Positions 6,193 through 32,529 of a stretch of DNA of 64,000 nucleotides are shown here, piece after piece. The notes under the pieces were generated by a model that did not search any database, was not told where the DNA came from, and was given only the letters and a program-made list of their open reading frames with translations. This stretch comes from Salminus brasiliensis. Lineage: Eukaryota > Chordata > Actinopteri > Characiformes > Bryconidae. The translations under genes were made by a program, and so were the position numbers. The stretch lies in the NCBI RefSeq assembly GCF_030463535.1, contig NC_132883.1:29641373-29705372 (forward strand), given 5' to 3'. Positions within the stretch are counted from its first letter, which is position 1. Each line of letters opens with the position of its first letter.

Positions 6193-6308
6193 GTGAGAAC
6201 ACCTGAGGCTGGTTCCACAAGAAGCTCTGCAGTGTTAAAGGAGCAGTTAAGTCAGGAATAAAACTTTCATGATTGAGCACTGATCCCGGTTCAGTCGATT
6301 GGTCGAGA

Positions 6309-6314
6309 CGTGGT
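6309..6314. repeat. Target-site duplication (left), CGTGGT
   Basis: CGTGGT immediately precedes the terminal repeat AGAGAGAGATATAGGAGG, and the same six bases follow the inverted terminus at 30873-30878. Six-base duplications are the hallmark of Maverick/Polinton integration. Confidence 0.85.
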
Positions 6315-7385
6315 AGAGAGAGATATAGGAGGCACTTTTCGTCAAACTAGTTTTGACAGGTCGTCTCGACCAATCAGATCGTGCCACGCCCCCGTCATCA
6401 AGCCACGCCCCCTGCATATCCCTCCCTCGACCAATCAAAAGCATGCATTTTTCACCGGAAGTCCCGCCTTCTGGATATCCCTCCTTCCGGAAGTCCCGCC
6501 TATTGTGTTGCCGTCCATTTGGATAGCTGGGCACTTTTCATCAAACTTATTTGACAGGTCTGTTATCCATTCTCACATACCAATGCTGTTCCTATCCTAG
6601 TCCCCAGACCTTCAGTCAGACCCTGATTCATCAAACTGACAGGTCCCTTTCAACATCTGTTACTCAACCCCCCCCCCCCCCCCCCAACCACAACACACCA
6701 CCCCACCCCACCCCTGTGCCCATGTGTATGTGTGTGTGTGTGTGTGTAAACAAGGGAAGCCTAGCCGAGGTCAAAAGGTCCAAAAGAACCTAGACCCTGA
6801 TTCAGCAAAATATAGATATCCCTTTGGACATCTGTTACCCATTGCCACACCCATCCTGTGCCACGTGAGAGAGACGGAGAGAGAGTTGATCAGAGATCTA
6901 TAGACTTTTATTTATGAGTCAATCACATATTACACGCAATGATTCGGTGTAATGACATCATTTAAAAAGGCGCCCAATCAGGTGACCGAGATACATACGA
7001 TCGAGCAAATCAGAGAGGCCATGTAGGCCGAAGGATTTAAAGGGTCAGTGTTTGTGCGGCGGTTAGGGTTAGAAGATAGCCGTAATAATCATGGCTTCTG
7101 TCACAGATGCACCCAAAAAAATACGGCCGATCTTAGCAAGAACAAAAATGTGCTTGAAAGACACAGAAACGATTTATGCGTGGCGTTTGTCTAACGGCTA
7201 TTATTTCGGGTTCTATTTTGATCAAGAAAATGACAGAGTTGTGTTGTACAGCGGGCCGACATCAAGTTTTACGGATGCCTCTGAACTTTTTTCCTTGCAA
7301 CGCGATGAATGGCATACTTTCAAAAGACATTTTGGTTGTATGTATACTTATATTAAATTTAGATATTCGGATTGCAAAGTGATAT
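6315..7385 (+). repeat. Left Maverick-type terminal inverted repeat of the palindrome
   Basis: Matches 29807-30872 in inverse and the left TIR of Maverick copy A (31341-32284) directly. It contains subterminal motifs (TTTTCATCAAACT, GACATCTGTTAC, CCACGTGAGAGAGA), poly-C and (GT)n tracts, and a conserved block from GAGATACATACGATCGAGCA to the ATG of Maverick gene 1. From 7310 it agrees with the gene-1 remnant at the right end of copy A (44300-44390), so each arm resembles a Maverick right end. Confidence 0.85.
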
Positions 7386-7417
7386 TGTGGATCCTTTTTG
7401 TCACAGGTCATCAATAG
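7091..7417 (+). pseudogene. Maverick gene 1, N-terminal fragment inside the left TIR
   Basis: The 108-residue frame begins MASVTDAPKKI and continues to LQRDEWHTFKRH. It matches copy A gene 1 (32285-32527) over about 80 residues. After about 7330 it departs from that gene into the AT-rich sequence also seen at the right end of copy A, so the C-terminal part is missing. The function of the protein is unknown. An ATG preceded by the conserved TIR suggests that the terminal repeat doubles as promoter region. Confidence 0.7.
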
Positions 7418-8189
7418 CATTTTGTCATCATTATGACCTGCTACATCTTGTTGCCTGTGGATATTGTACATTCATTATTCAAATATTGCACAGGGCTTAC
7501 CTGGAGTGGAGTCCCTCTTTTCCAGAGAAGTAACACATAACAGCACTTCCAGCTATAATCAGAGATGACCCTCCCCAGCCTATGAACACTGCTGCACCTA
7601 TTTCAAATCTGAAGAATGAACAAAATCTGCAGCCCTCACCACTCCATGTGCAGTGCTTTTAAGAACGGAGAGGAGATGAGGTAATGATGATAGGCAAAAA
7701 TGTCATGATACAAAACAAAAAAGTTGAGAGAGAAACGTGTAGGAAGGAAAGGAGATTTGGGCAAATTCTCTCTCTCCCAAACCTTAATTACTTCATAACT
7801 TTATAACTACCAACAAAAACAACCTGTTATTTTACTGTGTTTTAGTGAGCAAACATACATTTAGGTTTTTATGCATTCCTAAATGACAAATGTAAAAGGA
7901 TTCAAGCTAGACAAAGCATTGAATGGAGGATCCAGTGTTTACAAAGTTTGATGTTTTGGCAACAGTTTCTACTTTTTGGTTCTTAAAACATTGTATTGAC
8001 ATCATAGTTAAAATGCCAAAGCACTTTGTGAAGTTAACTCTTCTGAAATGTTGAATTGTGGATGTAGCTGTAGTATGCCTATGACTAACACTTGAAAAGT
8101 TACATGCTGCACTGGAAAAAAGTGACCGATCTAGAAGATGTGTCATTGGAACTCAATAAGATGTTTTTACATTAAAATTCAATTTTATC

Positions 8190-8555
8190 AAGCTAATATC
8201 AGCATAAAAATTTATACAATTATAGACTTTACTATTCTAAGAATAAACTATTGGAAATATGGAGTAGCGTGTAAATGTATGGGCACCCCTAGTCAAAATA
8301 TTGTTGTTTACTGTGAATTGTTCACAGTAACAACTGATCTTCAAAAAGCATAATTTACAGATAAAAGTCTTTTCAACATTTTAAGGAATGTTATTGTACA
8401 ATTTTTGTTTTGTACAAATATAAAGTGAAAAAAAAATAGCACCATGAAAAAAGTTTTACCATTTTTTACAAAGGAATCTTTGAAGGTGTTACTAAGTATA
8501 GACCATGCAAGGTGTCCAAACTTTTGTATCAGGCCCTTTTATCTTTAATTTCTAT
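8190..8555. repeat. Tandemly duplicated intron repeat, first copy (left arm)
   Basis: A unit containing GTATGGGCACCCCTAGTCAA, TTCACAGTAACAACTGATCT and CCAAACTTTTGTATCAGGCC occurs here and again at 13976-14265. The inserted element 8563-13973 lies between the two. The right arm has the same pair uninterrupted at 28345-29015. Probably an old DNA-transposon remnant in claudin intron 3. Confidence 0.6.
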
Positions 8556-8575
8556 CAAGCTACACTGAAAAAAAG

Positions 8576-10270
8576 AACTTGTTGGATTTACTTAATTCAA
8601 TAGTGGACATTGGTTGCACACATTTGTTTTGCTTCAGCAGCAACTTAAACAATTAAGTTAAATGAACACAAGTTTTTCACATTTAATAAACATGTATATT
8701 TTGTGTTGATAACGTGTGATTGAAACATGTTATGATGAAGTGATTTGAGCTCCTAGAACACTTTAATCCGTTGCAATTTTCTCACTTTATTCCAACCCTA
8801 TTCGATAACTTTTACTTAAATACTACTGGTCACTTAAATACTACATGTTATCTTCATTTTAAATGCTGATATTATATTCAAGTGTCAAATACTAAATTTT
8901 ACAAATAGAGGTCTTACAACAGATTGTATTGTTCTCTTCAAAGATGGTTGCCAGTAACTCTTAGTAATCTTTCAAAACAAAATGTCTATTTTCACTGCAG
9001 TGACCATAGGTAAAGAATTGAACTAACATTACTGCTCCACTGAGATATAAATCAACAATTAAGAAGTAATTTCTGTTTTACAGTGTTTTGACTCAGTCGC
9101 AGCACAGAAGTTAGACATTTTCTTTTAGGCAACCATCTTGGAAAATCAACACAAACCCTCTGCTTAAGACCCCTATTGTCTAGATTAAATGAAAATATTA
9201 CAACTGTAAACAATTCAGTGCAATTACTGGACTGATTTAAAATGCAGACATTAGTAGCCATTAACATTCAAATAAACTATTACTACACAATAAACACTAC
9301 TAGGAACACCCTGATAACTTTCGTAAACAATTATTACCCATTTTACCTCTGTTAATAATAAAAATTAGCAGTTGCATGTCAACACCTTTATTTATAAACA
9401 GAAATACAGGGTCAAAAATGGCAACAATATTGTGACATAAGTTCAAAACTCTTCACTCCAATTGAATTTAACCAAACATGTCACTTCACATGGTCCTGAT
9501 GGGACTAGACTGCCAAACTCTACAGCTCTTTACTTTTAAAGAAAAATATAAACTGAAATTGAAAAGTGCTGCCTATCAGAAAACTTGTACAAAAAGGAGG
9601 CAGGGGGAGGAATGGCCCCATCAACATGGCAGTTACAGAGTTGAATAAACTTTAATACAAGTTCCTAACAAGGAACTCTGATTTGTTGTGATTAGCTGAT
9701 TATTCACCAAAAAAAAAACAAAAAAAAACAATCAACCTCCAAAACATAGGAGAGCAAGTTTAAGACTTACAGCTCTCACCTGGAGCTGACCAAATCACAT
9801 GTGAAACAGAACAAGACAATGTAATAAAAATCTGTTTTATAACAAGTGTTCTTTATCATTAAATCTAAACACAAGAGAATTTTTTTTTTTTTTTTAAATA
9901 AAATCTGAACAGTGAACTCGCTGAACAGTTTTTTGTTTTGGGTTGCTGATTGTTCACCCTGAACATTTAACCTCCAAAAAGTAGGAGATTACTGTAAATG
10001 TGTGATTTTAATGTCTTTCATACATTAATAGAAGGTCCTAACAATGAACTCTGATTTGTTGTGGTTAGTTGGTTATTCACCTTCGGGAAAAAAGAAAAAA
10101 AAAAAAAAAAAAAAAAATTCAACCTCCAAAACATAGGAGAGCAAGTTTGAGACTTAGAAGTACTCTCACCTAGAGCTGACCACATCACATACAAAAGAGC
10201 AAATTTTCCTAACAGGAGCAGTTTTGTTCCAACAAAAAAAAGGCATTTTACAGCAAGGAGGTAGTGTCAT
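8576..10270. other. AT-rich flank of the SAMD3-like gene with a direct repeat
   Basis: No protein is recognised. Segments at about 9650-9800 and 10020-10195 are imperfect direct repeats (AACTCTGATTTGTTGTG, CAACCTCCAAAACATAGGAG and GAGCTGACC blocks in the same order), with a third partial copy near 9900-9990. Poly-A tracts lie between them. This would be the 3' flank of the gene. Confidence 0.55.
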
Positions 10271-13200
10271 TCAAATGTAAACAACTAAAGAAAATGTACT
10301 TTTATGTACCAACTTTTGAATCACCTCAAAAGTGAAGCGTAGTTGTGATGGGTATCTCATGTTCAAGGAGTAAAAAAGTCCAAACAACATGGCTACTGCA
10401 AGGGCCACGTTATCAAGGTCCTGAAGAACCACAACGCCTTCAATGATGATGCCAACATCAGAAGAGTCACTGCCTGGCGTCTCTCTGGTGACGTAGATGC
10501 CCACTGTAGTTTTTTCTATTGCACTCAGTGTAGCAGCCTCAGCCATGTCCTGTTTAAAGATAAAACATTTTTTTTTAAAACATTTTCTTAAACCCATGTT
10601 AGCAGAACAGTAGATGGCTGTAGCCAAAGACAGCCCTTCCAATTTCTACAAAAGAAAAAAAACCCTGACATTTATTTAAGCTCAAATGGAGAGGAACCTT
10701 GAAGATTTACATTAGTTTTTGTTTGAAATATATTAGCCCACCAGAAGCCATACTAAGCCAATAAAATGATTTATGATTTTCTTTTAGACTCTCAATTTGG
10801 ATTGTACAAGTCTGGTACTGTTTGGGCAATGAACATTCAAGCAAAAACTAATGTTAACATTAACTTCACATTTTTTTCCTAGATGATTTTGATCATTAAC
10901 CTGGACTTGATATACTCCAGGGCCGTAACTCAGTCCCAGTTACCTTTGTCAGCCCAGTATGGGAAGATGGTGTAATTTTCTTCAAAGGGATCAAAATGGG
11001 TGGTTATTCACTTTCATACAGGGTTCCTATTGCTTAAGACAAGTTAAAATTTAGACTTTAAGACCTCTCTAATGTCCCTTTAAATTAAATTTAAGACCAA
11101 ATTCACAATAAGCACAAATATGAAAAACGTTTATTTATACTTAAAACTGTCTGTGAGAGGAATTCTGTAAACTATTTAAAAAATAATTTTACCAATTATT
11201 TTAATATTTGAGACAAATTACAATCATCCTACTTAGAAAGTGTTAACATTAAGACCTCTGAAAGACTGATTTAAGACATTTTAAGGATAATTAAAGCCTT
11301 ATTTTTGGACTGATGAATTCAATGCCTTTTGAGGATCCACAGGAACCCTGTCATAATGCTATTATGAAAGTGAAAAATCCTCCATTTATCAGTAGGGGGA
11401 TATGGAGAAAAATTGGTAGGTTTGAAAATCTAATGTGACAAGTTTAACTTATTGTTTTAATCTCAGCAATGGAATTACTTTGGAATTACTAGAATTACTT
11501 TCCCAAATTAATAAAGAGGGTCTTAACAGTATAATCACAGAAATAACTGAATGCATAGTTTTACAATGTTGTATAGCCAAAATCGACTCAAAACACTCAC
11601 CATGTACTCCTGCACCAAGACATCAGGACTCTCATTCAGATAGATGCAGAGTCCTTTGATGAGGGACTCCCTTCGAGCATCAGTGTCATCCTTAAGAATT
11701 ACAACAAGGAAAATAGAGATGTGAACTCAAATTTTCAGTAGCACAAAAGAAGGTGATCAAAAGACAAAAACTTTGACTTTTCTAACCAGTCATCATATGA
11801 CACTAACATCTACAAAATATAAAAACTGTACATTTGACCTGACCGTTATGGACTGGACTTTTTATAATGTCCTGATGATATAAAAAAGATAAATGTCTCA
11901 CAGTGGAACAGTGAATGCAAAATAAAAATTAAAGGGTTATTTCAGTGAAATCAAAAATCCATCCCTCACTCACTCACTCACTCCCTCCCTCCACCATTCA
12001 CCCCCTCCTACCCTCCCTTCATAACTCAGTCCCTCCCTCCTTCCATCACTCACTCAATCTACTTTATTTATAACTGCAGGTAGATTAGATTATCAGTAAT
12101 CACACACCAAGTAAGCAATGCAATGGTTACAGTATACCAATCTTTCACTAAACAAATGCAATGCATATGTACTTTATGGGATGGAAGAAGTTGAAAGTTC
12201 TTACCGACATTGTGGCAACTATGTTTTTCAGCTTTTTGCCCGGCTCACCCGATCGCTTTGCAAACACTCTCAGCAGACTTTCAGAAAGAAAGTCAAGCTA
12301 CGACAGAAATCTTGACTGTAGAGGCATTGTTGTGATGCGCTTGAATTCCGCATTTATCTGAAACAACATGAAATTATTATTAAATGACAGTCAAAAGATT
12401 TCAAGAGACATTTCAAACATTAAAAACAACTAGGGGTGCACGATGATATCGGTTTTATATCGATATCGGCCGATTTTTAGATTTGGCTGATATTTCATTT
12501 ATTGATTAATTTAATTTAATTTATTATTTTTAGTATAAAGCTAATATTTTATTTAACTTTTTTTAAAAAGAGTTTAAACCATGAATAGTCCAAGTAAGGA
12601 CCAGTTATCTGACTAAATATGGCTAGCAATTTTCTCAGGAGACAACTTTCTTTTATTTGCACACAGATGGTTGAAACCTAAAATGTTATGCAAATAAATG
12701 TCACATGAATGGTTGGTCATCTGGGCTTTGATATGGAATATTTTGAAACACAAACTAATAAAGTCAACCATTACCTTTAAACATTAATGCATTTATGACA
12801 ACTAGTCAAAGCATCATTTTTTTAATTACCTCTGCTGCATAAAAAAGAGCTGGCCATCTCTCTTGTACATCACTGATCATGGGATCATCATAGACAATTT
12901 CTTGTCTCCTCAAAGCAAATGTTGCATCCATTTTCTTTTTAATTGTCTCTCTGTTGTTGCGCTTCTTCACATCTGATAGGAGTTCAACCCTCATATCCTC
13001 AAGGGACTGTTCACTTTCTCCAAGAGGAAAAGAGGGGCAGTAATCCACTTCACCCCTCTTTGGTCTTTTAACATCAAAAGCAGGGGAGCATTTCTCAGCT
13101 GGTTTATGTTTTAAAGAATTCACACATACTTCAGGACACCCTACTTTTCGAAGATGTGTGCGATAGTTTGACAACTTGTATTTGAGGCTCATTTTCCATC

Positions 13201-13585
13201 CTGCATAGCCACTGGGTGAGCCTTTTTCTTTTAAACATGGGTGTCTCAGGATGAGTGCCTCTGCAACTTGGTCAAACTTACTGCCTGTAAGATAAACTGT
13301 GTGCTTAACTATCTCCTGGATCAAGCCCTCTAATATGTCAGACTTTAACTTTGGATCAGGAATCAACAGCATCCCATTTTCTTTGAAAGCTACATGGGCC
13401 TTCTCTAGCTTAATTTCAGCATCGTACGTGAAACGGGGAACGCAGAACAAATCTGGCCAAGAAGACCGTGATGATGTAGACTCTGAAGATGAAAGAATGA
13501 TGGTGCCCGCGCCATTAAAAACAACTTCAAATGAAGCAGCGCTAGTATGAAGCAGATAAAAAACAGCGCTGGCAAACAGGCTCAC
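10271..13585 (-). CDS. SAMD3-like gene, four exons, about 425 residues
   Basis: Minus-strand exons: 12830-13585, 12205-12357, 11601-11690 and 10271-10549. All three introns are GT-AG (donors GTAATT, GTAAGA, GTGAGT; acceptors with pyrimidine tracts) and all are phase 0, giving an open frame of 252+51+30+92 codons to a stop at 10271. The protein has CVPRFTYDAE near residue 50, a KYKLSNYRTHLRKVGCPE block (about 130-150), a KRPKRGEVDY block (about 175), RRQEIVYDD and WPALFYAAE (about 230-250), and a C-terminal GIIIEGVVVLQDLDNVALAVA segment. These are typical of the multi-copy fish proteins labelled sterile alpha motif domain-containing protein 3-like (recalled family). No SAM domain is evident upstream. 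Role unknown; it lies inside a mobile element. Start chosen at the first ATG of the open exon. Confidence 0.75.
12430..12780. repeat. Small dispersed repeat in SAMD3-like intron 1
   Basis: Begins TAGGGGTGCACGATGATATCG and contains a palindromic ATATCGATATCGGCCGAT block. This resembles ends of hAT-type non-autonomous elements, but no matching right end was found. Confidence 0.3.
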
Positions 13586-13975
13586 GACAAGTATTTAATG
13601 TTACATGGTGATTCTCAAAACAATTAACTACATTTGAGTGCGATTTTGTTAATATTCGTCCAGAAAATCAAGACTTACTGAACAAAGTAGGAACGAGCAC
13701 TCCGACCAACTCCAACCATTTCTTCCCACGTCTTCCTTGTTACGTTGAGGGCGCGAAACAAAATCCCGTACGGTATCGTGAGATTTAACATTGATACGTT
13801 ATTGATTCACTTCAGTCGAACATGATATGAACACATTCATGTAGTCTCTCTGCGTGTTATGTAGTTTTTACACAATAAAATTACATGTCTGTTTAAAACA
13901 CGAGGCAGTTGTGTTAAATACACTCAAAATGCTTACATAAATCCAAGACATGGCTAGTCTCCTTTTTTCAGTGTA

Positions 13976-14930
13976 ATATCGGCATAAAAAATGTATACAA
14001 TTATAAACTTTACCTTTCAGAAATTTCATTTTACTATTCTGAGAATAAACTCTTGGAAATATGGAGTAGCATGTAAATGTATGGGCACCCCCTGGTCAAA
14101 ATATTGTTGTTTACTGTGAATTGTTCACAGTAACAACTGATCTTCAAAAAGCATAATTTACAGATAAAAGTCTTTTCAACATTTTAAAGAATGTTATTGT
14201 ACAATTTTATATGTATAGACCATGCAAGGTGTCCAAACTTTTGTATCAGGCCCTTTTACCTTTTAGAAATGGTAAAATTAAAACTAATCTAAAATTAAAA
14301 CTAATCTAAAGCTTAAATAAAGAAATTACAATTTGTTTAACTTTCATCACTGTGCACAGACATTAATCAGGTGAACTCAAACATGTACATGCCACTGTAT
14401 AGGAAATAATAATAATAATACGCTTATAAACTTGTAGTTAATAGTTCACCCGCAGACAAACTACATGCTTAAAACATCAACATTTACCTCAAACCTTCAG
14501 TTCTTATGCAATTCTGAATAGACCTGCTTATGTGGTTTCTAAACAAGTAGATCACATAAAAAAATAAAATAAAAAATACAGAAAAACTAAAAAGAAAATT
14601 CTTTGCTTATTGACTGCATTAGATTTTTGGTCAAACAATCACAATCAGGCCCAGATTAGATTTAATAGATTATTTAACAACTATCAATAACTGATGAGCA
14701 GTTTCAGGTTCAAGGGTGTTTATTAATGATAAGCCTGCTAAAGCGTAAGTGTGGGTGTTTTAAACGTATATATATAAAATGAGGGGAAATCAAAGTAAAT
14801 GCAATTATGTTTTAATGGCATTAGTATATGTCTTGAACATCACTTTTCAATCGGCTTTACATTTATTTCAAGAAAAGTAAAAATGTAAATTTCTGTGTGA
14901 AAGCATGTTCACCACATCTAAAAATAGCTT
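13976..14930. other. Claudin intron 3 sequence, left arm
   Basis: Second copy of the intron repeat (13976-14265), then AT-rich unique DNA with an (AAT)n tract at 14407. No gene is seen. Mirrors 27680-28650. Confidence 0.5.
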
Positions 14931-15562
14931 ACTTCTGTGGCTTGTAGTTTGGATCCACATATTGCACCTGTGTTTTATGCTCCACCAGGAGTACAGTATC
15001 ATACCACTGAACCCTGTGGCACAAAAAGCATTGCATCATTTCTGGAATTATTTTACTATGAATTGAACAAGAATGAAGTTTGAAGGCATCATACCTAATG
15101 CCATATAGGTCAGGGCAGCTGCAAAAGTTACCCTGGCATTGGCAAGTTCAGAACCTCCAATCTTAGTATATTTCATTCCAATTAAAGCAAGCACAGCTCC
15201 CCAGAATCCCAGGATTACAGAGACAATAGCCAGGGCACGGCAAACATGCAAGAAAACTTAAGAGACAGTGGTGAACTAGTTGCTGAACTTCACTGCACTG
15301 TCTAATTCAATCTAAAAACATCTGACATTGGTGGTCAAACTGTATACTGTTTTTTACCTGGCAGTGCTATCATGGATGGGTAATATTTGCAGTCGGACAC
15401 ACCAGTGGTGTAAGAAACACAGTCCATCCACAGATTGGAAAAATATTTGACAGTGGTAACAACAGCTTCTCCCACCAGTACTCAGTGGGCAGAGTAGAAC
15501 AGTTCAGTAACCAGCCACAAAGACAACAAATGAAGCAACCAATCTCCATATACACCATTTCT

Positions 15563-16732
15563 GTGTGATTCATTTGTTCAAGTCTTGTAGTACAATTAAA
15601 AAAGCAGATATAGGTAATAGTTTATGTAATAAAAAAAAAAATTCTCTCATCAGACTGAAAGCAGTACATGAAATGTGCCATGAAAGCCATACATTTACAA
15701 ATTTGAATGTTTTGTGTATTACACAAAACTGAAACTCATTTCTAGCAAATTGTCTAAATATTGCATGATTCTCGCAAACAGTCATGACAGCTGGCATGTA
15801 ATGTGAATGCTAGCTAGTCAGTAAAATTCTGGTGAAAAAAAAAAAAAAAAAAAGATCCAAGCCAATAATATTCTCCGGGGCCTTTTTTCTTACCCCCAAA
15901 TGTCTAACTTTACATTTTCAATATATAGAAGGAAGATCCTTTTTTATAGTTCACCTTTTGGGCTAAACCATGTATATTAATGGTAGCATGTTCCTGGATA
16001 TTTTTTTATAATAATGAGATGGAATAATGAAAAAACAAACTACTTTATACTTTTAATACACAGTCATTGCCTGTATAATACATGCTGTATAATACATGCC
16101 ATAACACATTAGGTCTGGCTCTCTATGATTAACGTAAATTTCAATCTTTCTGAGTAATTTTGTTCATTCTATATTAGTTATTGTCCACCATAAAGAATGT
16201 TAATAACTATTTGAACAAACAGAATCTAAAGACTCTCAGCACTTAGGTTTGATCTGTCAACATCATTTTAAAATAGAATAGGTCACAGAATGAGCATAAT
16301 GTATTGAACGGTCATTCTCTTGGGCTTTAATTAATTTTTTTAAATGCAGGATGTTGTATAAATTTGTAGAGTGACATTTAAAATATAGGTGTTGGTGATC
16401 ATCCAACATCCAGAATTAGCAACGCTTCTGTAACTGGATGGAGTCAAAGTCTAGCAACAGTTACAGTTACTCTACCTGTTTTTAATACTTTTTCAGAATA
16501 CATTTTAGAAAAAAACAATGAATAAGCAGGTGTCTGAATACTTTGTCCATATAGTGTATCTTGTATTTGTATTGGGTGTGGTTTGAATATATTGGTGCTA
16601 TTGAATATTATGTGTTATATTTGACTTATAATTCAGTTTTTTTTTTTACTTATGAATCAAATAAATGGTGAGTAATTATTGATGTGATGACATTGAATGC
16701 CACACCTGTTAATATTCTAAATGTCCATACAG

Positions 16733-16763
<31 letters not shown>

Positions 16764-17264
16764 ACATTCCTGCAATAATCAATATGATTATGTCCTTGCA
16801 TGCATGTGTATATTAGATGCCAACATGGTGAGTTTAAGCACCTGGGCCTTTGTGTGTTTCTTTGTATGTGTACACTCTTAAATAGAAACTAATTTGATGA
16901 CTTTGAATGGCAAACATGTTGATATTCTTTTAGTAAGTATATGGTGAGTATGCATCCTATTGTAAGATCACCTACTCTGCCTGTGTGTGTACTCCTGATC
17001 TTGCATGTGTGTCTGGGGGTTGGTGTAAAATTTAGTTAAACATACTATTAGAACTATTTTAGAACTATAGAAATGACAAACATGCTGTAATCTTTGGTTG
17101 TTAGATATTTTTCTATAATGTGTCAGCTTGACAGTGTTTACTCTAACTGTGAAATTGGTTATCAGATTGTGATCAGATGTGTGTGCATTACTGGAAGTCA
17201 TCAGTGAAATAGTGTGTCATCTATTTCTATTTGAGAAATATATGTACTGGAAATGCCATATATA
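15563..17264. other. Inner left arm of the palindrome, no gene recognised
   Basis: AT-rich DNA mirrored by 25350-27050. It includes poly-A at 15835, a (TG)n microsatellite at 16737-16763, and short frames without recognisable homology. This would be the 5' flank of the claudin-like exons. Confidence 0.5.
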
Positions 17265-17412
17265 CAGTTGTGTTTAAAATTATTCAACCCCTTGCAGTAA
17301 AGTGTTTTAGCAAGTTTGACAAGACATTTAATTTTTATCTTGTTCACAATCAGATCAAATAAGGACCTGTATAATATACCAATTACAACAATATTTTTTT
17401 TAACATGCCAAC

Positions 17413-17979: not shown

Positions 17980-17991
17980 TTTCCCCCCTTT
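17980..17991 (-). promoter_or_regulatory. ERV2 polypurine tract
   Basis: AAAGGGGGGAAA on the minus strand directly abuts the 3' LTR, where plus-strand DNA synthesis is primed in retroviruses. Confidence 0.85.
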
Positions 17992-18007
17992 GATTCTTAA
18001 TCAACAC

Positions 18008-19373: not shown

Positions 19374-19399
19374 GCTGTCTCTTCCGGTGTAGTTGGGGC

Positions 19400-20583: not shown

Positions 20584-20599
20584 CTACTGAGGTGTGCGC

Positions 20600-21082
20600 T
20601 GCGCATTTAACAACTGCAATCGGTGAAGGTACACTGAAGAATGCATTCACTAAATCTACCACTGTGTAATCGTGTGGTCTGTAGGAATCTGAAACAAAAT
20701 AGTATGGGGGTTTGGTACTTCAGGTGCTCGAGCCTGAACTGCAGCATTTACTGCCTGCAGGTCCTGAACAAACCTCCACTCATCCCGGCCGGGTTTTTTA
20801 ACTGGAAAAATTGGTGTCCTAACCAAAGCTTGAAACACGGGTCTAATACCGTCAACTGCTTCAGGTTTTAAGGCGTACTGGGTACTGGCTTGTCTGGGTC
20901 TACATGGAGTATACTGGACTACTGGACTTTGGTGTAATGGATACTGGTTCACAGTCTTTAATCAATCCCATATCATACCTACTAGAAGCACACAGCCAAG
21001 GAGGAAGCGAAGCTAGCTCCAATTCCTCCTCTTCTGTGAGTGTGGCAGCCTGAATCAGTGGAGGCGAGCCAAACAGCTCCAC
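20600..21082 (-). pseudogene. pol: ERV2 reverse transcriptase fingers, palm deleted, joined to RNase H tail
   Basis: TPIFPVKKPGRDEWRFVQDL and NPHTIL show the RT fingers, with TVVDLVNAFFSVP beginning the palm (VDL carries the first catalytic Asp). The sequence then jumps to VVKCAAHTSVDDPVSKRNAF, which is the end of RNase H. The YxDD region and most of RNase H are therefore deleted at about 20625. Several stops add to the damage. Confidence 0.8.
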
Positions 21083-21294
21083 TGTTCGCTCTGCTCTCAG
21101 CCTGTATTGAAAAGGGCACTTCTATGTCTTTGTGGAAGTGCTATTCTGCACATTGGGGCGCTCAGTATTGGCCCAATCATTACCCCTGGCCACCCTCAAG
21201 GCCCATGGCCCGATATCTTACCACGGGAGGGTGTGTTTAAATCTGGCCAGGGAGATGTGGGGGTAGGAATTTCCCGCTGTGAACAACGCACATG

Positions 21295-21588
21295 TTAAAT
21301 AAAAGTTTTCCCATCTAGGGAACATTGGAGGGGCACAGACACCTTTTCTCTAACCACTTCTCCCCCCACCCCTATTAATGCTTGAGCTTTTCCCTTTTGT
21401 GTGTCACAATGAAGCTCATTAGTCCTAATCACTGAGTGGCCTGCCCCGCTATCTACCAAAAATTCCAAACTCCCTTCTACAATCCGAGTCAATTTCGGCA
21501 TACTTAATGAGCATGTTGTAAGCTGTTGCACTAATAAAGGATAGGGAGAAGAAGATACTTCCCTTTTTGCTGTGTCAGTGGGTCCCAT
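21295..21588 (-). pseudogene. pro: ERV2 aspartic protease
   Basis: LEFLVDSGAGHSVI contains the active-site triad in the D-S-G form, followed by ALIGVGGEVV as the flap-side segment. The frame overlaps the end of gag by about 58 bp in another frame, which suggests frameshift or readthrough expression in the ancestor. The open part is 97 residues, so the C-terminal portion runs into damaged sequence. Confidence 0.8.
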
Positions 21589-23324
21589 TCCACCGTCCTG
21601 CCCCTCCGCCGCCCGTCACTGCTCCTGATGCGCTGCTGCTGGTTTTCCCTCTCCTGGACATACTGCTCGGAACAATCCCTGGCAAAATGTCCATACTTGC
21701 CACAATTGTAGCATCGATTCACCCATGATTCACCCTGACTCACATTTGGTTGGTTTGGCTGGAAAGCTGGCCTGTTGCCTACAAATCCTCGTCCTCTCCC
21801 TCTGCCTTTGCCTCTGCCTCGTTCTCGACCCCTCCCTTGTCCTCTTCCTCGGCCTCCCCCGCGTGAAGCGTTAGTGGGGAGGGATGCAACTTGCTGTACC
21901 ATCGTCAACATGGCTTGATCCAACGTGTCTGTTCGCTTTTTCTCTTTCTTCTTTGACTGAGCGTTTAGGAGGTTCTCATGATGATGGTCCTCTATGGTGG
22001 CGAGGGGCTGTCTAGCATATCCCACGCAATGCTGCTTGATAGCGTTGGAGAGTTCAGATCTCAAACCCATCAGGAAGCTGTTGCACAGGTGCGCCTCCCA
22101 TGAAGACACATTTTCTGGATTGTTTGCTCTCGCCACAGGAACCTCCAGTCCGCTAAAGTCTGTGTGAACTCTCGTCAAGCGAACCAGATAATCTTGAACA
22201 GTCTCTCCATTTTCCTGCTTACATGCTGCTATCTTTCCCATGTTCACATGCAGGGGAAAGGCAGCTTCCAATTGAGTTCTACAGTCTCTTATCATGGTCC
22301 AATAAGGAGCATTGGGGTCCGGATTGACATTCTCTCCGGGGTTGTAGGTGGAATCGGTCAGGCGTATATCTCCTTCTGGCCAACCTCGATCAACCTTGCA
22401 ATAACTGGAGCCCAATTTTCGGAACAGAATCCAATTTATCTCATTCGAAGTTGGAAGGCATGATATGACAAAGTCCTCAAATTCTCCCCCAAACTTACAT
22501 CTACCTACTTGTCGGGGGTCGGACAGACTAGAGGCAGCTTCTATCAAGTCCTTTTCAATCCAATATCGATGTACTAAGAGGGGACCCTCTGGTTCAGACA
22601 CCTCTACCATAGGGAAAGAGCCACTTAGGGCTTGAACTGCAGTGAAAACTCTCCCTTGGTCAGGTGGACCCTTGAAGGGTGTGCTGAAGTTAGGTTCTCT
22701 TTCTGGATCACGGCTTCTGGTATGGGAGGCCATTATGTGAGTGGGCCAGGTGCCCCTTGGCCAGCAATTAGCTCTCGCTGAGTGTCGGCACAGGGACCCG
22801 GTGTTGGGGGTGGTGCAATGTATGGAGAAGAGGGAGCCGCTGGTTCAGGTGCTGCTTCAGGCTGGTTCTGGTTTTCCGCTGGTGCTGGTCTTCTTGGCAG
22901 GGCGGCATCGAGGTCAGGATCGGCAGCAACTGAGACACACTGAGACATTAGTTTAGTTTTACCCCTTCCCTCTTTTCTCTCTCTGTCTGCCTGCACTCTG
23001 TTTTAACACTTACAAAAGCCAATCGCCCATTAAATACTTGCTTTTTGTTTTGCACAGTGTTTTAATCACCGCTTTTCTTACTCTATCCTTAAACTTATAC
23101 AAATATTTCACACTGAGGCTCCCAGTAGTCGGAAATCCGAAATATTTTATCCACAATGGGACATACATTACACTATCAGTACCATAATCCTGGCTCACCT
23201 GACTAAAGAGAGCCGCAGTGTGAACCTTTGGGTTAAATATAATTCCTAAGCTAACTGGGATCCCATCTTGTTCTCTCACTTGATTTAGCGACTCAGAGTA
23301 ATTTAGCCCCAACAACAACGTCAC
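21531..23324 (-). pseudogene. gag: ERV2 gag (matrix, proline-rich, capsid, nucleocapsid)
   Basis: Three successive open pieces: 23010-23324 (matrix-like, with WIKYFGFPTTGSLS), 22733-22996 (proline and alanine rich) and 21531-22733 (400 residues). The last has the major homology region (ENGETVQDYLVRLTRVHTDF, about residues 170-190), then a striking Arg/Gly repeat (GGGRGRGQGRGRERGRGKGR), and one CCHC zinc knuckle (CYNCGKYGHFARDC, about residue 345). The pieces are separated by single stops, so gag needs only a few changes from an open state. The Arg/Gly-rich stretch beside a single knuckle is uncommon and recalls the GR boxes of spumaviruses. Confidence 0.85.
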
Positions 23325-23798
23325 CTCCCTTTGCCTACTTATTCTATATTAGGTACCCTGTACCTAAAACTATTAGCACTCCTTCCCACGGTCCGGACCT
23401 ATTGCTCTAGTGACACGTCTATCAATAGAGGCCTCGCTATGAGTAGACTACTCTTTCACTCTTGTTACTCTAATACATTTACCACTAGAGGCCTCACTAT
23501 GACCAGGCTAGTCTTTTACTCTTTACACTGTCATGTAACTAAACTTCATCCAGGACAGAGTGCTCAAAGGAAGGTGGAGGGGAATTAAATTTTCGGAAAT
23601 AATTATCCTGTCACTCACCACCACCAATGTTCGTAGATGAGGCTTGGATTGCAAGCGGAGGGACGATCAGTCACACTCACCCCCGCAGTACTTCTCCCTT
23701 GCTCTGTGGGATTTTCCCCTGCTTTTGGGTCCAGCCTCTACCAGAGAGCATCCTCGGTGAGTGTTCACTTCTCTCCCCTCCGCTGCACTCCGTTGCTT

Positions 23799-23816
23799 AT
23801 CCTGTTCGTGATGCCA
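23799..23816 (-). promoter_or_regulatory. ERV2 primer-binding site, tRNA-Ser-like
   Basis: TGGCATCACGAACAGGAT lies three bases inside the 5' LTR. Its complement ends in CCA, as a tRNA 3' end does. From memory it best resembles a serine tRNA (CGA/UGA type) with one or two mismatches; this assignment was not checked against a tRNA set. Confidence 0.65.
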
Positions 23817-23819
23817 AAA

Positions 23820-24384
23820 TGTGGTGGAAATTTTGTGACAGAAGAAACACTAAGTCTCTGAATCAGTATCAAAGTGAGTAACAAATTTGTTGAGAGAAGT
23901 ACAAAGCAAAACCTTAGTTTCTGCCTGTCTGCTCTGAGCTCTGCATGATCTGCAGGAGCTTTTATCATCGCTGGGCTCTTCTCTCACCCGCTCAGCAATG
24001 ACTGACCAGATAGCCTTATAGTGTAAAAAGGCTATACATTTATCTGTTACTTGCATGAGAACCGTCCCAGGAATATGACCCCACTGACCCCATCTGGTCC
24101 CTGTTTATGGGGGGGGGGTCATTCTAAGGTAAGTGCTGACTGCAGATCATTCTGTCCTCCCGTCGGTACTTCTTCTCTCGCCCACTTCTGCTTATCATCT
24201 ATGTCAGGGCGCAGTTGCACCGTGAGAAAGATAAGCAGAGACAGACAATAACAGTGTGAACAGACCCCGGTACAACATAGATGAAGAACATATAACAAGA
24301 GGTGACCGAGGTCCCCTTACATATCACAGAATATGAATCAACAATTTAGTTATTGATTATGAATCATCAATAACTTCCATTACA
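23820..24384 (-). repeat. ERV2 5' LTR
   Basis: 565 bp, partner of 17413-17979. Followed on the plus strand by the target duplication CAAC and then by the interrupted Tc1 repeat. Confidence 0.9.
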
Positions 24385-24431
24385 CAACAAATTTCCTCAT
24401 TGACAAAATTATTCAACCCCTTTGTCACATA

Positions 24432-25165
24432 CAGTGAGGAAAATAAGTATTTGAACACCCTGCGACTTTCTCCCACTTGGAGGGAAATCACAATGTATAA
24501 TTTTTTTTTATATATAACTTATTTGTGTGTTACTGCTGCAAATACGTATTTGAACACCTGCCAATCAGCAAAAATTCTGGCCCTCAAAGACCTTAGTCCG
24601 CCTCTAAAAAGTCCACATCCACTCCACTTATTATTCTAAATTAGAAGCACCTGTTTGAGTTCGTTAGCTGCATACAGACACCTGTCCACCCCACACAATC
24701 AGTAAGACTCCAACTACTAACATGGCTAAGACCAAAGAGCTGTCCAAAGACACCAGAGACAAAATTATAGACCTTGACACAAGGCTGGAAAGGGTTTTAC
24801 TGTTGCAGGTCAAGGGAATCTCCACAGTGTGGAAGGTACCATGAATTCAGTTAACTACCAGAAGATGATTTCTTGAGTGGAAATGTCACACCGTCAGTAA
24901 CAAATCTGAAGCCTGGGAGATGTTGGACCTTTCAACAGGACAATGATAAACAAGTGCACCTCCTATTCTACAATAGCTTGGATGCAGAAGAAGAGCTGGA
25001 AGATTCTGGATTGGCCATGAATGTCAATGAACTGGAGGCCTTTTCCCCAGGACATATGGGCTAAGATACCTGTAGATCGCTGCAAGATAGTTGTCAAGCT
25101 ATGTTCCCAACTAAAGAACAGTATTACTGCCAAAGGAATTTTTACAAAGTACTAATGATGTATGT
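24432..25165 (+). pseudogene. Tc1-like transposase relics
   Basis: Starts with another Tc1-type terminus (CAGTGAGGAAAATAAGTATT), then the beginning of a Tc1 transposase (MAKTKELSKDTRDKI, 24721) that soon decays, and further on the C-terminal part (WTFQQDNDK, WKILDWP, about 24920-25060) in shifting frames. The middle is deleted. It mixes a second Tc1-type end with the interior of the axis element. Confidence 0.7.
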
Positions 25166-25349
25166 GACAAAGGGGTTGAATAATTTTGTCAATGAGGAAA
25201 TTTGTTGGTATGTTAGAAAAAATATTGTTGTAATTGGTATATTATACAGGTCCTTATTTGATCTGATTGTGAACAAGATAAAAATTAAATGTCTTGTCAA
25301 ACTTGCTAAAACCTTACTGCAAGGGGTTGAATAATTTTAAACACAACTG

Positions 25350-25849
25350 TATATATGGCATTTCCAGTACATATATTTCTCAAATAGAAATAGATGACAC
25401 ACTATTTCACTGATGACTTCCAGTAATGCACACACATCTGATCACAATCTGATAACCAATTTCACAGTTAGAGTAAACACTGTCAAGCTGACACATTATA
25501 GAAAAATATCTAACAACAAAAGATTACAGCATGTTTGTCATTTCTATAGTTCTAAAATAGTTCTAATAGTATGTTTAACTAAATTTTACACCAACCCCCA
25601 GACACACATGCAAGATCAGGAGTACACACACAGGCAGAGTAGGTGATCTTACAATAGGATGCATACTCACCATATACTTACTAAAAGAATATCAACATGT
25701 TTGCCATTCAAAGTCATCAAATTAGTTTCTATTTAAGAGTGTACACATACAAAGAAACACACAAAGGCCCAGGTGCTTAAACTCACCATGTTGGCATCTA
25801 ATATACACATGCATGCAAGGACATAATCATATTGATTATTGCAGGAATG

Positions 25850-25880
<31 letters not shown>

Positions 25881-27049
25881 TGTATGGACATTTAGAATAT
25901 TAACAGGTGTGGCATTCAATGTCATCACATCAATAATTACTCACCATTTATTTGATTCATAAGTAAAACAAAAAAACTGAATTATAAGTTAAATATAACA
26001 CATAATATTCAATAGCACCAATATATTCAAACCACACCCAATACAAATACAAGATACACTATATGGACAAAGTATTCAGACACCTGCTTATTCATTGTTT
26101 TTTTCTAAAATGTATTCTGAAAAAGTATTAAAAACAGGTAGAGTAACTGTAACTGTTGCTAGACTTTGACTCCATCCAGTTACAGAAGCGTTGCTAATTC
26201 TGGATGTTGGATGATCACCAACACCTATATTTTAAATGTCACTCTACAAATTTATACAACATCCTGCATTTAAAAAAATTAATTAAAGCCCAAGAGAATG
26301 ACCGTTCAATACATTATGCTCATTCTGTGACCTATTCTATTTTAAAATGATGTTGACAGATCAAACCTAAGTGCTGAGAGTCTTTAGATTCTGTTTGTTC
26401 AAATAGTTATTAACATTCTTTATGGTGGACAATAACTAATATAGAATGAACAAAATTACTCAGAAAGATTGAAATTTACGTTAATCATAGAGAGCCAGAC
26501 CTAATGTGTTATGGCATGTATTATACAGCATGTATTATACAGGCAATGACTGTGTATTAAAAGTATAAAGTAGTTTGTTTTTTCATTATTCCATCTCATT
26601 ATTATAAAAAAATATCCAGGAACATGCTACCATTAATATACATGGTTTAGCCCAAAAGGTGAACTATAAAAAAGGATCTTCCTTCTATATATTGAAAATG
26701 TAAAGTTAGACATTTGGGGGTAAGAAAAAAGGCCCCGGAGAATATTATTGGCTTGGATCTTTTTTTTTTTTTTTTTTCACCAGAATTTTACTGACTAGCT
26801 AGCATTCACATTACATGCCAGCTGTCATGACTGTTTGCGAGAATCATGCAATATTTAGACAATTTGCTAGAAATGAGTTTCAGTTTTGTGTAATACACAA
26901 AACATTCAAATTTGTAAATGTATGGCTTTCATGGCACATTTCATGTACTGCTTTCAGTCTGATGAGAGAATTTTTTTTTTTATTACATAAACTATTACCT
27001 ATATCTGCTTTTTTAATTGTACTACAAGACTTGAACAAATGAATCACAC
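25350..27049. other. Inner right arm of the palindrome, no gene recognised
   Basis: Mirror image of 15563-17264, including the (AC)n tract at 25852-25875 and poly-T at 26760. Microsatellite lengths differ slightly between the arms. Confidence 0.5.
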
Positions 27050-29691
27050 AGAAATGGTGTATATGGAGATTGGTTGCTTCATTTGTTGTCTTTGTGGCTG
27101 GTTACTGAACTGTTCTACTCTGCCCACTGAGTACTGGTGGGAGAAGCTGTTGTTACCACTGTCAAATATTTTTCCAATCTGTGGATGGACTGTGTTTCTT
27201 ACACCACTGGTGTGTCCGACTGCAAATATTACCCATCCATGATAGCACTGCCAGGTAAAAAACAGTATACAGTTTGACCACCAATGTCAGATGTTTTTAG
27301 ATTGAATTAGACAGTGCAGTGAAGTTCAGCAACTAGTTCACCACTGTCTCTTAAGTTTTCTTGCATGTTTGCCGTGCCCTGGCTATTGTCTCTGTAATCC
27401 TGGGATTCTGGGGAGCTGTGCTTGCTTTAATTGGAATGAAATATACTAAGATTGGAGGTTCTGAACTTGCCAATGCCAGGGTAACTTTTGCAGCTGCCCT
27501 GACCTATATGGCATTAGGTATGATGCCTTCAAACTTCATTCTTGTTCAATTCATAGTAAAATAATTCCAGAAATGATGCAATGCTTTTTGTGCCACAGGG
27601 TTCAGTGGTATGATACTGTACTCCTGGTGGAGCATAAAACACAGGTGCAATATGTGGATCCAAACTACAAGCCACAGAAGTAAGCTATTTTTAGATGTGG
27701 TGAACATGCTTTCACACAGAAATTTACATTTTTACTTTTCTTGAAATAAATGTAAAGCCGATTGAAAAGTGATGTTCAAGACATATACTAATGCCATTAA
27801 AACATAATTGCATTTACTTTGATTTCCCCTCATTTTATATATATACGTTTAAAACACCCACACTTACGCTTTAGCAGGCTTATCATTAATAAACACCCTT
27901 GAACCTGAAACTGCTCATCAGTTATTGATAGTTGTTAAATAATCTATTAAATCTAATCTGGGCCTGATTGTGATTGTTTGACCAAAAATCTAATGCAGTC
28001 AATAAGCAAAGAATTTTCTTTTTAGTTTTTCTGTATTTTTTATTTTATTTTTTTATGTGATCTACTTGTTTAGAAACCACATAAGCAGGTCTATTCAGAA
28101 TTGCATAAGAACTGAAGGTTTGAGGTAAATGTTGATGTTTTAAGCATGTAGTTTGTCTGCGGGTGAACTATTAACTACAAGTTTATAAGCGTATTATTAT
28201 TATTATTTCCTATACAGTGGCATGTACATGTTTGAGTTCACCTGATTAATGTCTGTGCACAGTGATGAAAGTTAAACAAATTGTAATTTCTTTATTTAAG
28301 CTTTAGATTAGTTTTAATTTTAGATTAGTTTTAATTTTACCATTTCTAAAAGGTAAAAGGGCCTGATACAAAAGTTTGGACACCTTGCATGGTCTATACA
28401 TATAAAATTGTACAATAACATTCTTTAAAATGTTGAAAAGACTTTTATCTGTAAATTATGCTTTTTGAAGATCAGTTGTTACTGTGAACAATTCACAGTA
28501 AACAACAATATTTTGACCAGGGGGTGCCCATACATTTACATGCTACTCCATATTTCCAAGAGTTTATTCTCAGAATAGTAAAATGAAATTTCTGAAAGGT
28601 AAAGTTTATAATTGTATACATTTTTTATGCCGATATTTAGAAATTAAAGATAAAAGGGCCTGATACAAAAGTTTGGACACCTTGCATGGTCTATACTTAG
28701 TAACACCTTCAAAGATTCCTTTGTAAAAAATGGTAAAACTTTTTTCATGGTGCTATTTTTTTTTCACTTTATATTTGTACAAAACAAAAATTGTACAATA
28801 ACATTCCTTAAAATGTTGAAAAGACTTTTATTTGTAAATTATGCTTTTTGAAGATCAGTTGTTACTGTGAACAATTCACAGTAAACAACAATATTTTGAC
28901 TAGGGGTGCCCATACATTTACACGCTACTCCATATTTCCAATAGTTTATTCTTAGAATAGTAAAGTCTATAATTGTATAAATTTTTATGCTGATATTAGC
29001 TTGATAAAATTGAATTTTAATGTAAAAACATCTTATTGAGTTCCAATGACACATCTTCTAGATCGGTCACTTTTTTCCAGTGCAGCATGTAACTTTTCAA
29101 GTGTTAGTCATAGGCATACTACAGCTACATCCACAATTCAACATTTCAGAAGAGTTAACTTCACAAAGTGCTTTGGCATTTTAACTATGATGTCAATACA
29201 ATGTTTTAAGAACCAAAAAGTAGAAACTGTTGCCAAAACATCAAACTTTGTAAACACTGGATCCTCCATTCAATGCTTTGTCTAGCTTGAATCCTTTTAC
29301 ATTTGTCATTTAGGAATGCATAAAAACCTAAATGTATGTTTGCTCACTAAAACACAGTAAAATAACAGGTTGTTTTTGTTGGTAGTTATAAAGTTATGAA
29401 GTAATTAAGGTTTGGGAGAGAGAGAATTTGCCCAAATCTCCTTTCCTTCCTACACGTTTCTCTCTCAACTTTTTTGTTTTGTATCATGACATTTTTGCCT
29501 ATCATCATTACCTCATCTCCTCTCCGTTCTTAAAAGCACTGCACATGGAGTGGTGAGGGCTGCAGATTTTGTTCATTCTTCAGATTTGAAATAGGTGCAG
29601 CAGTGTTCATAGGCTGGGGAGGGTCATCTCTGATTATAGCTGGAAGTGCTGTTATGTGTTACTTCTCTGGAAAAGAGGGACTCCACTCCAG
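27050..29691 (+). pseudogene. cldn10: Claudin-10-like pseudogene, right arm (exons 1-4)
   Basis: Exons: about 27050-27254, 27356-27517 (162 bp), 27599-27679 and 29584-29691 (108 bp), all with GT-AG junctions and compatible phases (exon 2 to 3 gives ALG-FSGMILYSW). Features: MEIGCFICCLCGWLL (first membrane segment), the LW-C-C loop signature, VCRALAIVSVILGFWGAVLALIGMKYTKIGG, YVDPNYKPQK before segment four, and FEIGAAVFIGW. The same single-base shifts in exons 1 and 3 occur as in the left arm, so they predate or were copied with the inversion. The last exon is replaced by Maverick DNA. Claudin proteins build tight junctions; this copy cannot. Confidence 0.78.
28345..29015. repeat. Tandem pair of intron repeats (right arm)
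   Basis: Two copies of the unit with GGGCCTGATACAAAAGTTTG and ATGGGCACCC blocks lie next to each other. This is the empty-site counterpart of the left-arm insertion at 8563-13973. At the junction the right arm reads TTTCTAAATATCGGC, nine bases shorter than the left-arm flank. Confidence 0.65.
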
Positions 29692-29806
29692 GTAAGCCCT
29701 GTGCAATATTTGAATAATGAATGTACAATATCCACAGGCAACAAGATGTAGCAGGTCATAATGATGACAAAATGCTATTGATGACCTGTGACAAAAAGGA
29801 TCCACA

Positions 29807-30872
29807 ATATCACTTTGCAATCCGAATATCTAAATTTAATATAAGTATACATACAACCAAAATGTCTTTTGAAAGTATGCCATTCATCGCGTTGCAAGGA
29901 AAAAAGTTCAGAGGCATCCGTAAAACTTGATGTCGGCCCGCTGTACAACACAACTCACAACAAAATAGAACCCGAAATAATAGCCGTTAGACAAACGCCA
30001 CGCATAAATCGTTTCTGTGTCTTTCAAGCACATTTTTGTTCTTGCTAAGATCGGCCGTATTTTTTTGGGTGCATCTGTGACAGAAGCCATGATTATTACG
30101 GCTATCTTCTAACCCTAACCGCCGCACAAACACTGACCCTTTAAATCCTTCGGCCTACATGGCCTCTCTGATTTGCTCGATCGTATGTATCTCGGTCACC
30201 TGATTGGGCGCCTTTTTAAATGATGTCATTACACCGAATCATTGCGTGTAATATGTGATTGACTCATAAATAAAAGTCTATAGATCTCTGATCAACTCTC
30301 TCTCCGTCTCTCTCACGTGGCACAGGATGGGTGTGGCAATGGGTAACAGATGTCCGAAGGGATATCTATATTTTGCTGAATCAGGGTCTAGGTTCTTTCT
30401 GACCTTTTGACCCCGGCTACGCTTCCCTTGTTTACACACACACACACACACACACATACACATGGGCACAGGGGTGGGGTGGGGTGGTGTGTTGTGGTTG
30501 GGGGGGGGGGGGGGGGGGTTTGAGTAACAGATGTTGAAAGGGACCTGTCAGATAAGTTTGATGAATCAGGGTCTGACTGAAGGTCTGGGGACTAGGATAG
30601 GAACAGCATTGGTATGTGAGAATGGATAACAGACCTGTCAAATAAGTTTGATGAAAAGTGCCCAGCTATCCGATTGGACGGCAACACAATAGGCGGGACT
30701 TCCGGAAGGAGGGATATCCAGAAGGCGGGACTTCCGGTGAAAATGCACGCTTTTGATTGGTCGAGGGAGGGATATGCAGGGGGCGTGGCTTGATGACGTG
30801 GCACGATCTGATTGGCCGAGACGACCTGTCAAACGACCTGTTTGATGAAAAGTGCCTCCTATATCTCTCTCT
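29807..30872 (-). repeat. Right Maverick-type terminal inverted repeat of the palindrome
   Basis: Inverse of 6315-7385. Contains the gene-1 fragment on the minus strand starting at 30090 (MASVTDAPKKI). That fragment has a small internal deletion relative to the left arm near 29950, so the two arms are no longer identical. Confidence 0.85.
29908..30090 (-). pseudogene. Maverick gene 1 N-terminal fragment in the right TIR
   Basis: The same start as 7091 on the left, but a deletion of about 11 bases after GFYF shifts the frame and ends the open part at 60 residues. Otherwise identical over the first 40 codons or so. Confidence 0.65.
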
Positions 30873-30878
30873 CGTGGT
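30873..30878. repeat. Target-site duplication (right), CGTGGT
   Basis: Pairs with 6309-6314 around the palindromic element. Confidence 0.85.
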
Positions 30879-31634: not shown

Positions 31635-31684
<50 letters not shown>

Positions 31685-32527: not shown

Positions 32528-32529
32528 TC

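Follow-up and report, generated by a model that had tools for sequence, protein, structure and literature searches.

Mavericks, or Polintons, are virus-like transposons whose self-copying in animals has been deduced mainly from gene content, and strand displacement by a protein-primed polymerase would expose single strands. AAV has hairpin ends instead of protein priming, and snap-back forms similar to the AAV ones occur in adenovirus. Generally, Mavericks are described as encoding a protein-primed polymerase (PMC6431247, PMC10175614) and Polintons as making a 6-bp target duplication (PMC10045372), in the available parts of these reports. In AAV snap-back genomes, half of the linear genome is duplicated and folds on itself, with both ends the same, as excerpts of PMC8235507 have it. 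Nematode Mavericks with host-derived genes have also been reported (PMC10680173, in the portion available). According to the accessible text of PMC10766183, PMC10622511 and PMC10164571, yeast foldback duplications (ODIRA, break-induced foldback) have inverted repeats at the turn, and their linear product carries one native end on either side. In addition, host DNA lying between transposon ends and moved in trans is documented for Pack-MULEs and large retrotransposon derivatives (PMC6431247, same portion).

The locus described here resembles each of these systems in part. With Mavericks it has in common the outward-facing long terminal repeats, the 6-bp duplication and a partial Maverick reading frame at the inner side, but it is a palindrome in whose searched frames no Maverick integrase or polymerase gene was found, and both of its ends are copies of one end joined to host DNA. 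Unlike AAV snap-back genomes, it forms part of a chromosome and consists mostly of host DNA. The cargo of nematode Mavericks, as far as the available portion describes it, sits in Maverick elements, whereas here a broken gene is present in two inverted copies and one Maverick reading-frame fragment is left. The yeast foldback products, in the same excerpts, involve telomeres or dicentric chromosomes, while the product here has transposon ends and was inserted. Pack-MULEs and large retrotransposon derivatives belong to other transposon classes, and no palindromes are mentioned in the available part of that source (PMC6431247).

We propose, with a probability of about 0.5, that the element is a snap-back, non-autonomous Maverick which was inserted by an integrase and whose arms were later homogenised. 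The fuller statement, that a fish Maverick gave an extrachromosomal linear snap-back molecule, mostly of host DNA and with the same terminus twice, which integrase inserted into a gene, is put forward tentatively, at somewhat under even odds. Among the titles and abstract openings listed for Polinton/Maverick, defective genomes, foldback and gene conversion, none reports a palindromic or snap-back Maverick. If the proposal is true, Mavericks could convert the host DNA beside them into mobile palindromes, and virus-like transposons would have a route to duplicate and move pieces of host genes. Moreover, a snap-back product preserved in a chromosome would document physically that Maverick copying passes through a linear, single-stranded stage.

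Structure of the palindrome and its insertion site

Positions 6315-30872 of the window (the whole 64,000-nucleotide stretch of DNA that was analysed) form an inverted duplication of 24,558 bp. Its ungapped inverted pairs, which include stretches of 1,878, 1,319, 812 and 573 nt, are 99-100% complementary, and gapped pairs reach 2,253 bp at 98.0% and 3,439 bp at 99.7%. The palindrome is real and far above chance expectation, and the 24.6-kb palindromic unit recognised in the initial annotation is borne out. The boundaries and the host sequence around them are as follows:

5959..6192, + strand: host exon immediately preceding the insertion, matching positions 20-90 of the DUF4743 profile (splice sites by eye)
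6309..6314, no strand: target duplication CGTGGT, left copy, 6 bp (read directly)
30873..30878, no strand: target duplication CGTGGT, right copy (read directly)
31077..31139, + strand: next host exon downstream, DUF4743 positions 93-111 (weak alone, E 0.0074; splice sites by eye)

The two flanking exons, when joined, match DUF4743 at E 3.7e-28. The flanks are consecutive, collinear exons of one DUF4743 gene, and the insertion therefore lies within one intron. Both the hexamer on each side and an insertion with target duplication had been claimed before, and both hold, as CGTGGT stands at 6309-6314 and 30873-30878 between consecutive DUF4743 exons; an exact hexamer repeat at two fixed boundaries would be expected by chance once in 4,096. 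A plain chromosomal inversion was ruled out by the consecutive exons on either side. A search of solved structures with the joined DUF4743 exons gave no convincing match (two at E 0.07).

As a separate observation, the joined flanks and the inside of the terminal repeat both contain GATTGGTCGAGACG, a weak resemblance, as 8 of 300 shuffles scored as high; a link of the Maverick repeat to the site of insertion through this sequence was left aside on the same count.

From left to centre, the order is Maverick end, host DNA, a left-only transposon, host DNA, and a Tc1-like element with a retrovirus, and the right arm mirrors the left from 25350 to 30872. The parts between the ends and the centre are:

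7380..8554, no strand: outer host DNA, left arm, with claudin-10 exon 4 at ~7500-7600 on the - strand (exon mapped by hand from the right arm)
8563..13973, no strand: 5.41-kb DNA transposon, left arm only, with ends CACTGAAAA...TTTTCAGTG and a TA duplication
13976..17264, no strand: inner host DNA, left arm, with claudin-10 exons 3, 2 and 1 at ~14932-15570 on the - strand (mapped by hand from the right arm)
25350..28637, no strand: inner host DNA, right arm, with claudin-10 exons 1-3 on the + strand (exon limits by eye)
28638..29812, no strand: outer host DNA, right arm, with claudin-10 exon 4 at ~29592-29692 on the + strand (exon limits by eye)

The arms are unequal because the left one has the extra 5.41-kb transposon and the central part has a retrovirus of 6,972 bp in its left half. 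Minus these two inserts, and with the Tc1 repeats counted in, they measure 5,725 bp (left) and 5,716 bp (right); the boundaries of both inserts and of the Tc1-like element were set by eye from sequence and alignment. That the palindrome is an assembly artefact, a mirrored or collapsed contig, is highly improbable. Foldback read artefacts do exist (PMC12870357, in the part of the report available), but the arms are set apart by an insertion of 5.4 kb, a deletion of 7 bp, a complex indel of 11 bp and substitutions that cluster, with 12 mismatches in the outer 504 aligned sites, and the duplication at the boundaries is exact with consecutive exons as flanks. A simple assembly mirror was set aside as the main reading because these arm differences speak against it, and on the sequence it appears unlikely.

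Maverick ends and coding capacity

7,380 bases into the window the host DNA of the left arm begins, and the Maverick sequence outside it is bounded as follows:

6315..7379, + strand: left Maverick end, comprising the terminal repeat and the first part of a Maverick open reading frame and truncated at 7379 (alignment to the second end at 31340)
29813..30872, - strand: right Maverick end, inverted copy of 6315-7379

Each arm carries 1.06 kb of Maverick sequence, which stops abruptly between 7379 and 7380. The terminal repeat is the same on both outer ends, as the initial annotation had stated, and faces outward; the junctions which that annotation placed near 7385 and 29807 are corrected to 7379/7380 and, in the right arm, 29812/29813. 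The correction comes from a third Maverick piece on the other strand (44308-44550), in which 77 of 78 bases of 44308-44385 are identical to 7302-7379 and no match follows; since the match ends after 7379, the Maverick/host junction was set there. A second Maverick end (31340-32461) aligns with the palindrome end at 87% over 246, 84% over 235 and 88% over 254 columns. An open frame at 7073-7414 has its first part in common with this second end at 32234-32563. Thus the arms do contain claudin-10-like DNA, as had been claimed, but they are not wholly free of Maverick genes, as a little Maverick coding sequence is present in this frame.

Of the features that define Mavericks/Polintons, outward-facing terminal inverted repeats are present and common to the ends at 31340-32461 and 44308-44550, and the 6-bp target duplication is present as CGTGGT on both sides. 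The ends were assigned to Mavericks on this duplication together with integrase pieces at 37513-38196 and weak polymerase matches at 59216-60991, these pieces and matches lying outside the palindrome. Among the 15 homologues of the Maverick-type integrase pieces, a precomputed integrase domain is present in 2 and a polymerase domain in 1, and the pieces themselves match rve_3 weakly, below the cut-off; the DNA_pol_B_2 matches at 59216-60991 are likewise weak and below the curated cut-off. No complete element of the palindrome's Maverick family was found within the window, and the terminal motif of its ends occurs in 0 stretches of viral_contigs. Searches for relatives gave 4 pattern matches and 0 confirmed for the Maverick-side protein at 39193-39777, 2 and 0 for the Maverick integrase piece, and 1 candidate, none at E 0.01 or better, for the truncated Maverick reading frame.

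Inside 6315-30872, the Pfam scan covered all 10 stop-free frames of at least 110 aa, plus the claudin exons among shorter arm frames. None of the 10 frames holds a Maverick-type integrase gene; the integrase matches found there, at 19713-20057 (weak) and 20131-20583, both lie within the inserted retrovirus. A protein-primed B-family DNA polymerase was matched neither in these 10 frames nor by any of 149 Maverick-side frames (at least 50 aa, located in 35900-44300 and 52000-62000), each of which was compared separately with the palindrome. The matches of these 149 frames are confined to the two retrovirus LTRs, owing to a related LTR piece near 38620-39130, and one 38-aa match in the central loop (E 5e-4). 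With no Maverick integrase matched in the scanned frames of the palindrome and a Maverick-type integrase outside at 37513-38196, the palindromic element is non-autonomous at best.

Captured host gene

Four claudin exons lie in order in the right arm, reading towards the Maverick end; exon 4 is given above, and the others are:

~27042-27255, + strand: claudin-10 exon 1, right arm (by eye)
27364-27519, + strand: claudin-10 exon 2, right arm (by eye)
27601-27680, + strand: claudin-10 exon 3, right arm (by eye)

The joined exons, with X at two breaks, match PMP22_Claudin at E 4.4e-17, and a protein search with them gave 375 matches at E 0.001 or better among 738 candidates. Among the matches listed, the best 120 of 375, the named ones are fish proteins, mostly called claudin or claudin-10, and the best is a Salminus brasiliensis protein at 87% identity. 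The five best of those listed all come from characiform fishes, and the source animal is therefore probably a characiform as well. Claudin-10-like host DNA in inverted copies, another earlier claim, is therefore confirmed, with exons 4 to 1 running inwards in each arm. Compared with four fish proteins, exon 1 is partly missing and exon 3 is frame-shifted; the C-terminal part is absent, and the Maverick end starts after exon 4. The captured claudin-10 is thus a broken, decayed host gene. The exons are identical between arms and share the same breaks, which means that the damage either predates the duplication or was spread by conversion.

Tc1-like centre

17265..25349, no strand: Tc1-like element at the exact centre, with inverted repeats 17265-17412 + 24389-24435, and 25157-25349
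17413..24384, - strand: endogenous retrovirus of 6,972 bp in the left Tc1 repeat, with CAAC duplication at 17409-17412 and 24385-24388
24436..25156, no strand: loop present in one copy, separating the Tc1 repeats

The arms end inwards in the inverted repeats of a Tc1-like element, a centre that the initial annotation overlooked. When the retrovirus is set aside, the sequence to its left continues the Tc1 repeat and mirrors 25157-25349. One loop peptide matches the Sleeping Beauty HTH at E 6.5e-6, below the curated cut-off, and a second loop peptide matched no family. The retrovirus has matches to env, the gag zinc-knuckle, integrase (weak) and integrase zinc-binding, and its LTRs differ at 10 of 562 sites. 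TA adjoins the Tc1-like element on both sides, and the host DNA directly outside is identical.

The arrangement expected of a snap-back product, an inverted repeat at the turn, a unique loop (24436-25156) and identical outer sequence, is present. As the centre consists of Tc1 inverted repeats, it points to foldback copying on these repeats, and we infer that they predate the palindrome. It is very unlikely, by comparison, that a perfect spacerless palindrome came first, its foldback unprimed by Tc1 repeats, and was stabilised when Tc1 entered the centre later. The flanks would indeed form a perfect palindrome around TA-rich sequence (by eye) without Tc1, and TA lies next to both repeats; such a course requires, however, a hit on the exact central site of an arm pair of more than 11 kb in total.

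Sequence divergence of ends and arms

The left and right outer Maverick ends (6315-6825) differ at 12 of 504 aligned sites, while the arms farther in differ at 0 of 395 (6826-7220), 1 of 1,319 (7236-8554) and 2 of 3,287 (13975-17264), and the outer Tc1 repeats at 3 of 142 aligned sites. The end-versus-arm comparison, which leaves aside the stretch 7221-7235 (one complex indel, 3 of 4 aligned sites differing) and the Tc1 repeat, sets the outer end against the three arm stretches with 3 of 5,001 (p 1e-10). Without CpG sites the counts are 7/471 and 3/4,916 (p 4e-6), and with neighbouring changes merged as well 5/471 and 3/4,916 (p 0.0002), a contrast that is weaker but persists. When all sites are used and the 7221-7235 stretch is included, a single change point fits best at 7235, and none of 2,000 permutations gave one as strong. 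On rounder counts, the Tc1 repeats differ more than the arms (3/195 vs 3/5,030, p 0.0009), and the LTRs and outer ends are alike in divergence (12/577 vs 12/511, p 0.84).

By these counts the ends appear to be of about the same age as the retrovirus, and the arms younger, as if LTR and end divergence both dated from about the time of insertion. This fits an older palindrome whose arms were kept alike by arm-to-arm gene conversion, and it also fits arms made later between two older ends, the palindrome having formed inside a resident Maverick. Arms more alike than the dated parts (3/5,001 against 10/562 for the LTRs and 12/504 for the ends) may reflect gene conversion, but a younger palindrome predicts the same numbers. 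In human Y palindromes, gene conversion keeps arms more than 99.9% alike, and its tracts in one palindrome average at least ~2 kb (PMC3723533, in the excerpts available).

Formation in place would run differently: a resident intronic Maverick made the target duplication, a break was later repaired from a locus with a Maverick end and claudin DNA, foldback on Tc1 followed and the second end was joined, with the palindrome itself never moving. We consider this unlikely. It needs no extra step for an outer 0.5 kb more diverged than the arms, it accommodates the change point at 7235, and it explains retrovirus LTRs that look older than the arms; it requires, on the other side, ectopic repair, foldback and return to the second end all in one event, and outward-facing ends with a clean duplication are equally the product of direct integration. 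The target duplication proves only the insertion of something with Maverick ends. Hence, of the previous claim that the whole palindrome was inserted as one unit, the Maverick-ended insertion stands, while integration as a ready-made palindrome is no more than likely, since the divergence contrast also fits later replacement of the interior.

Origin of the element

In the snap-back reading that we prefer, the starting point is a Maverick end cut 1.06 kb in and joined to claudin-bearing host DNA, the composite now found inverted around a Tc1-like transposon. In a single-stranded stage such as Maverick strand-displacement copying would provide, one Tc1 repeat would anneal to the other and the 3' end would be extended back across the claudin DNA to the Maverick end, giving a linear molecule that terminates on either side in one and the same Maverick end. 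Maverick integrase from another element would then insert this molecule into the intron of the DUF4743 gene, making the 6-bp duplication. Afterwards, arm-to-arm gene conversion might keep the arm interiors near identical, while the outermost 0.5 kb and the central retrovirus would diverge freely. We infer the Tc1 priming, the integrase supplied in trans and the one-step integration; the palindrome is known here from one copy in one assembly, and protein-primed copying is taken from the literature. Experiments on a telomere-capping mutant of yeast showed foldback in single-stranded DNA between inverted repeats that were 1.5-5 kb apart or had 86-94% identity (PMC10164571), and yeast also has inverted linear molecules in which one native end occurs on both sides (PMC10766183), according to the available portions of both reports.

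The snap-back origin is supported by the palindrome with the exact duplication at its two ends, by flanking exons that are consecutive and in the right order (DUF4743 20-90, then 93-111), and by a symmetry centre that is exactly a Tc1 element with both repeats and identical host DNA outside each. In addition, the Tc1 repeats are more diverged (3/142) than the arms (3/5,001), as they should be when an inverted repeat already in place primed the foldback. The claudin breaks common to both arms and the similar divergence of LTRs and outer ends also fit this origin. Against this, the two repeats of a single Tc1 could simply differ by nature to this extent, and Tc1 could have been inserted at the centre later. 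Moreover, the end-versus-arm contrast needs added gene conversion or end exchange under snap-back, and the ends may be older than the arms. The snap-back reading predicts further palindromic copies that turn at inverted repeats.

A palindrome might also have formed at the native locus, by break-induced foldback beside the claudin pseudogene, and been excised and reintegrated later by Maverick integrase working on its two outward-facing ends, with no Maverick-type copying. This is quite unlikely. The final structure would be the same, but the course needs excision of a 20-kb unit by Maverick integrase, which to our knowledge is not established. In yeast, breaks are documented to induce inverted duplications close to inverted repeats, although such events give dicentric chromosomes there (PMC10622511, in the part available).

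Transposon insertion in the left arm

Opposite the site of the 5.41-kb transposon, the right arm is without 7 bp (TCAAGCT) that are present in a second, related copy of the local sequence. This gap looks like an excision scar, and the transposon may therefore once have occupied both arms.

Differences between the palindrome arms

The two arms of the palindrome, an inverted duplication in an intron of the DUF4743 gene, differ by a 5.41-kb transposon flanked by TA, which is present in the left arm at 8561-13975, while at the corresponding spot of the right arm (28637-28638) 7 bp are missing, a gap that resembles an excision scar. Both arms also carry a 179-bp local duplication (28404-28582 versus 28787-28964, 96% alike), which therefore either predates the palindrome or was spread by conversion. 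In addition, the joined insertion site (6299-6314 plus 30873-30895) shows a permuted resemblance to the interior of the Maverick repeat, with a score at least as high reached in 8 of 300 shuffles.

Mavericks and other elements in the window

A second Maverick was found downstream of the palindrome, and a retroviral match lies upstream of it:

31340 (start), end of the second Maverick, ~460 bp downstream of the palindrome and directly beyond the next exon of the same DUF4743 gene
37513-38196, integrase pieces in the second Maverick region (31340-44550)
44308-44550, inverted Maverick end piece
3097-3696, minus strand, integrase match of retroviral type, located upstream of the palindrome

An intact partner end for this second Maverick was looked for within the window and was not found. 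Compared with the Maverick end of the palindrome, the inverted end piece contains one stretch that is 98.7% alike and an adjoining one that is 83.7% alike, as if sequence had been exchanged between both. Moreover, two Maverick-like interiors (35957-42188 and 53093-58399) share the same orientation and are ~82-91% alike, and therefore several Mavericks are nested or clustered in the window.

Inside the second Maverick there is also an isolated LTR-like piece (38620-39130), which matches the LTR of the palindrome's central retrovirus at ~89-90%. Two LINE-like copies (32834-35593 and 47288-50500) lie in opposite orientations and are ~85-91% alike, the latter with an endonuclease match.
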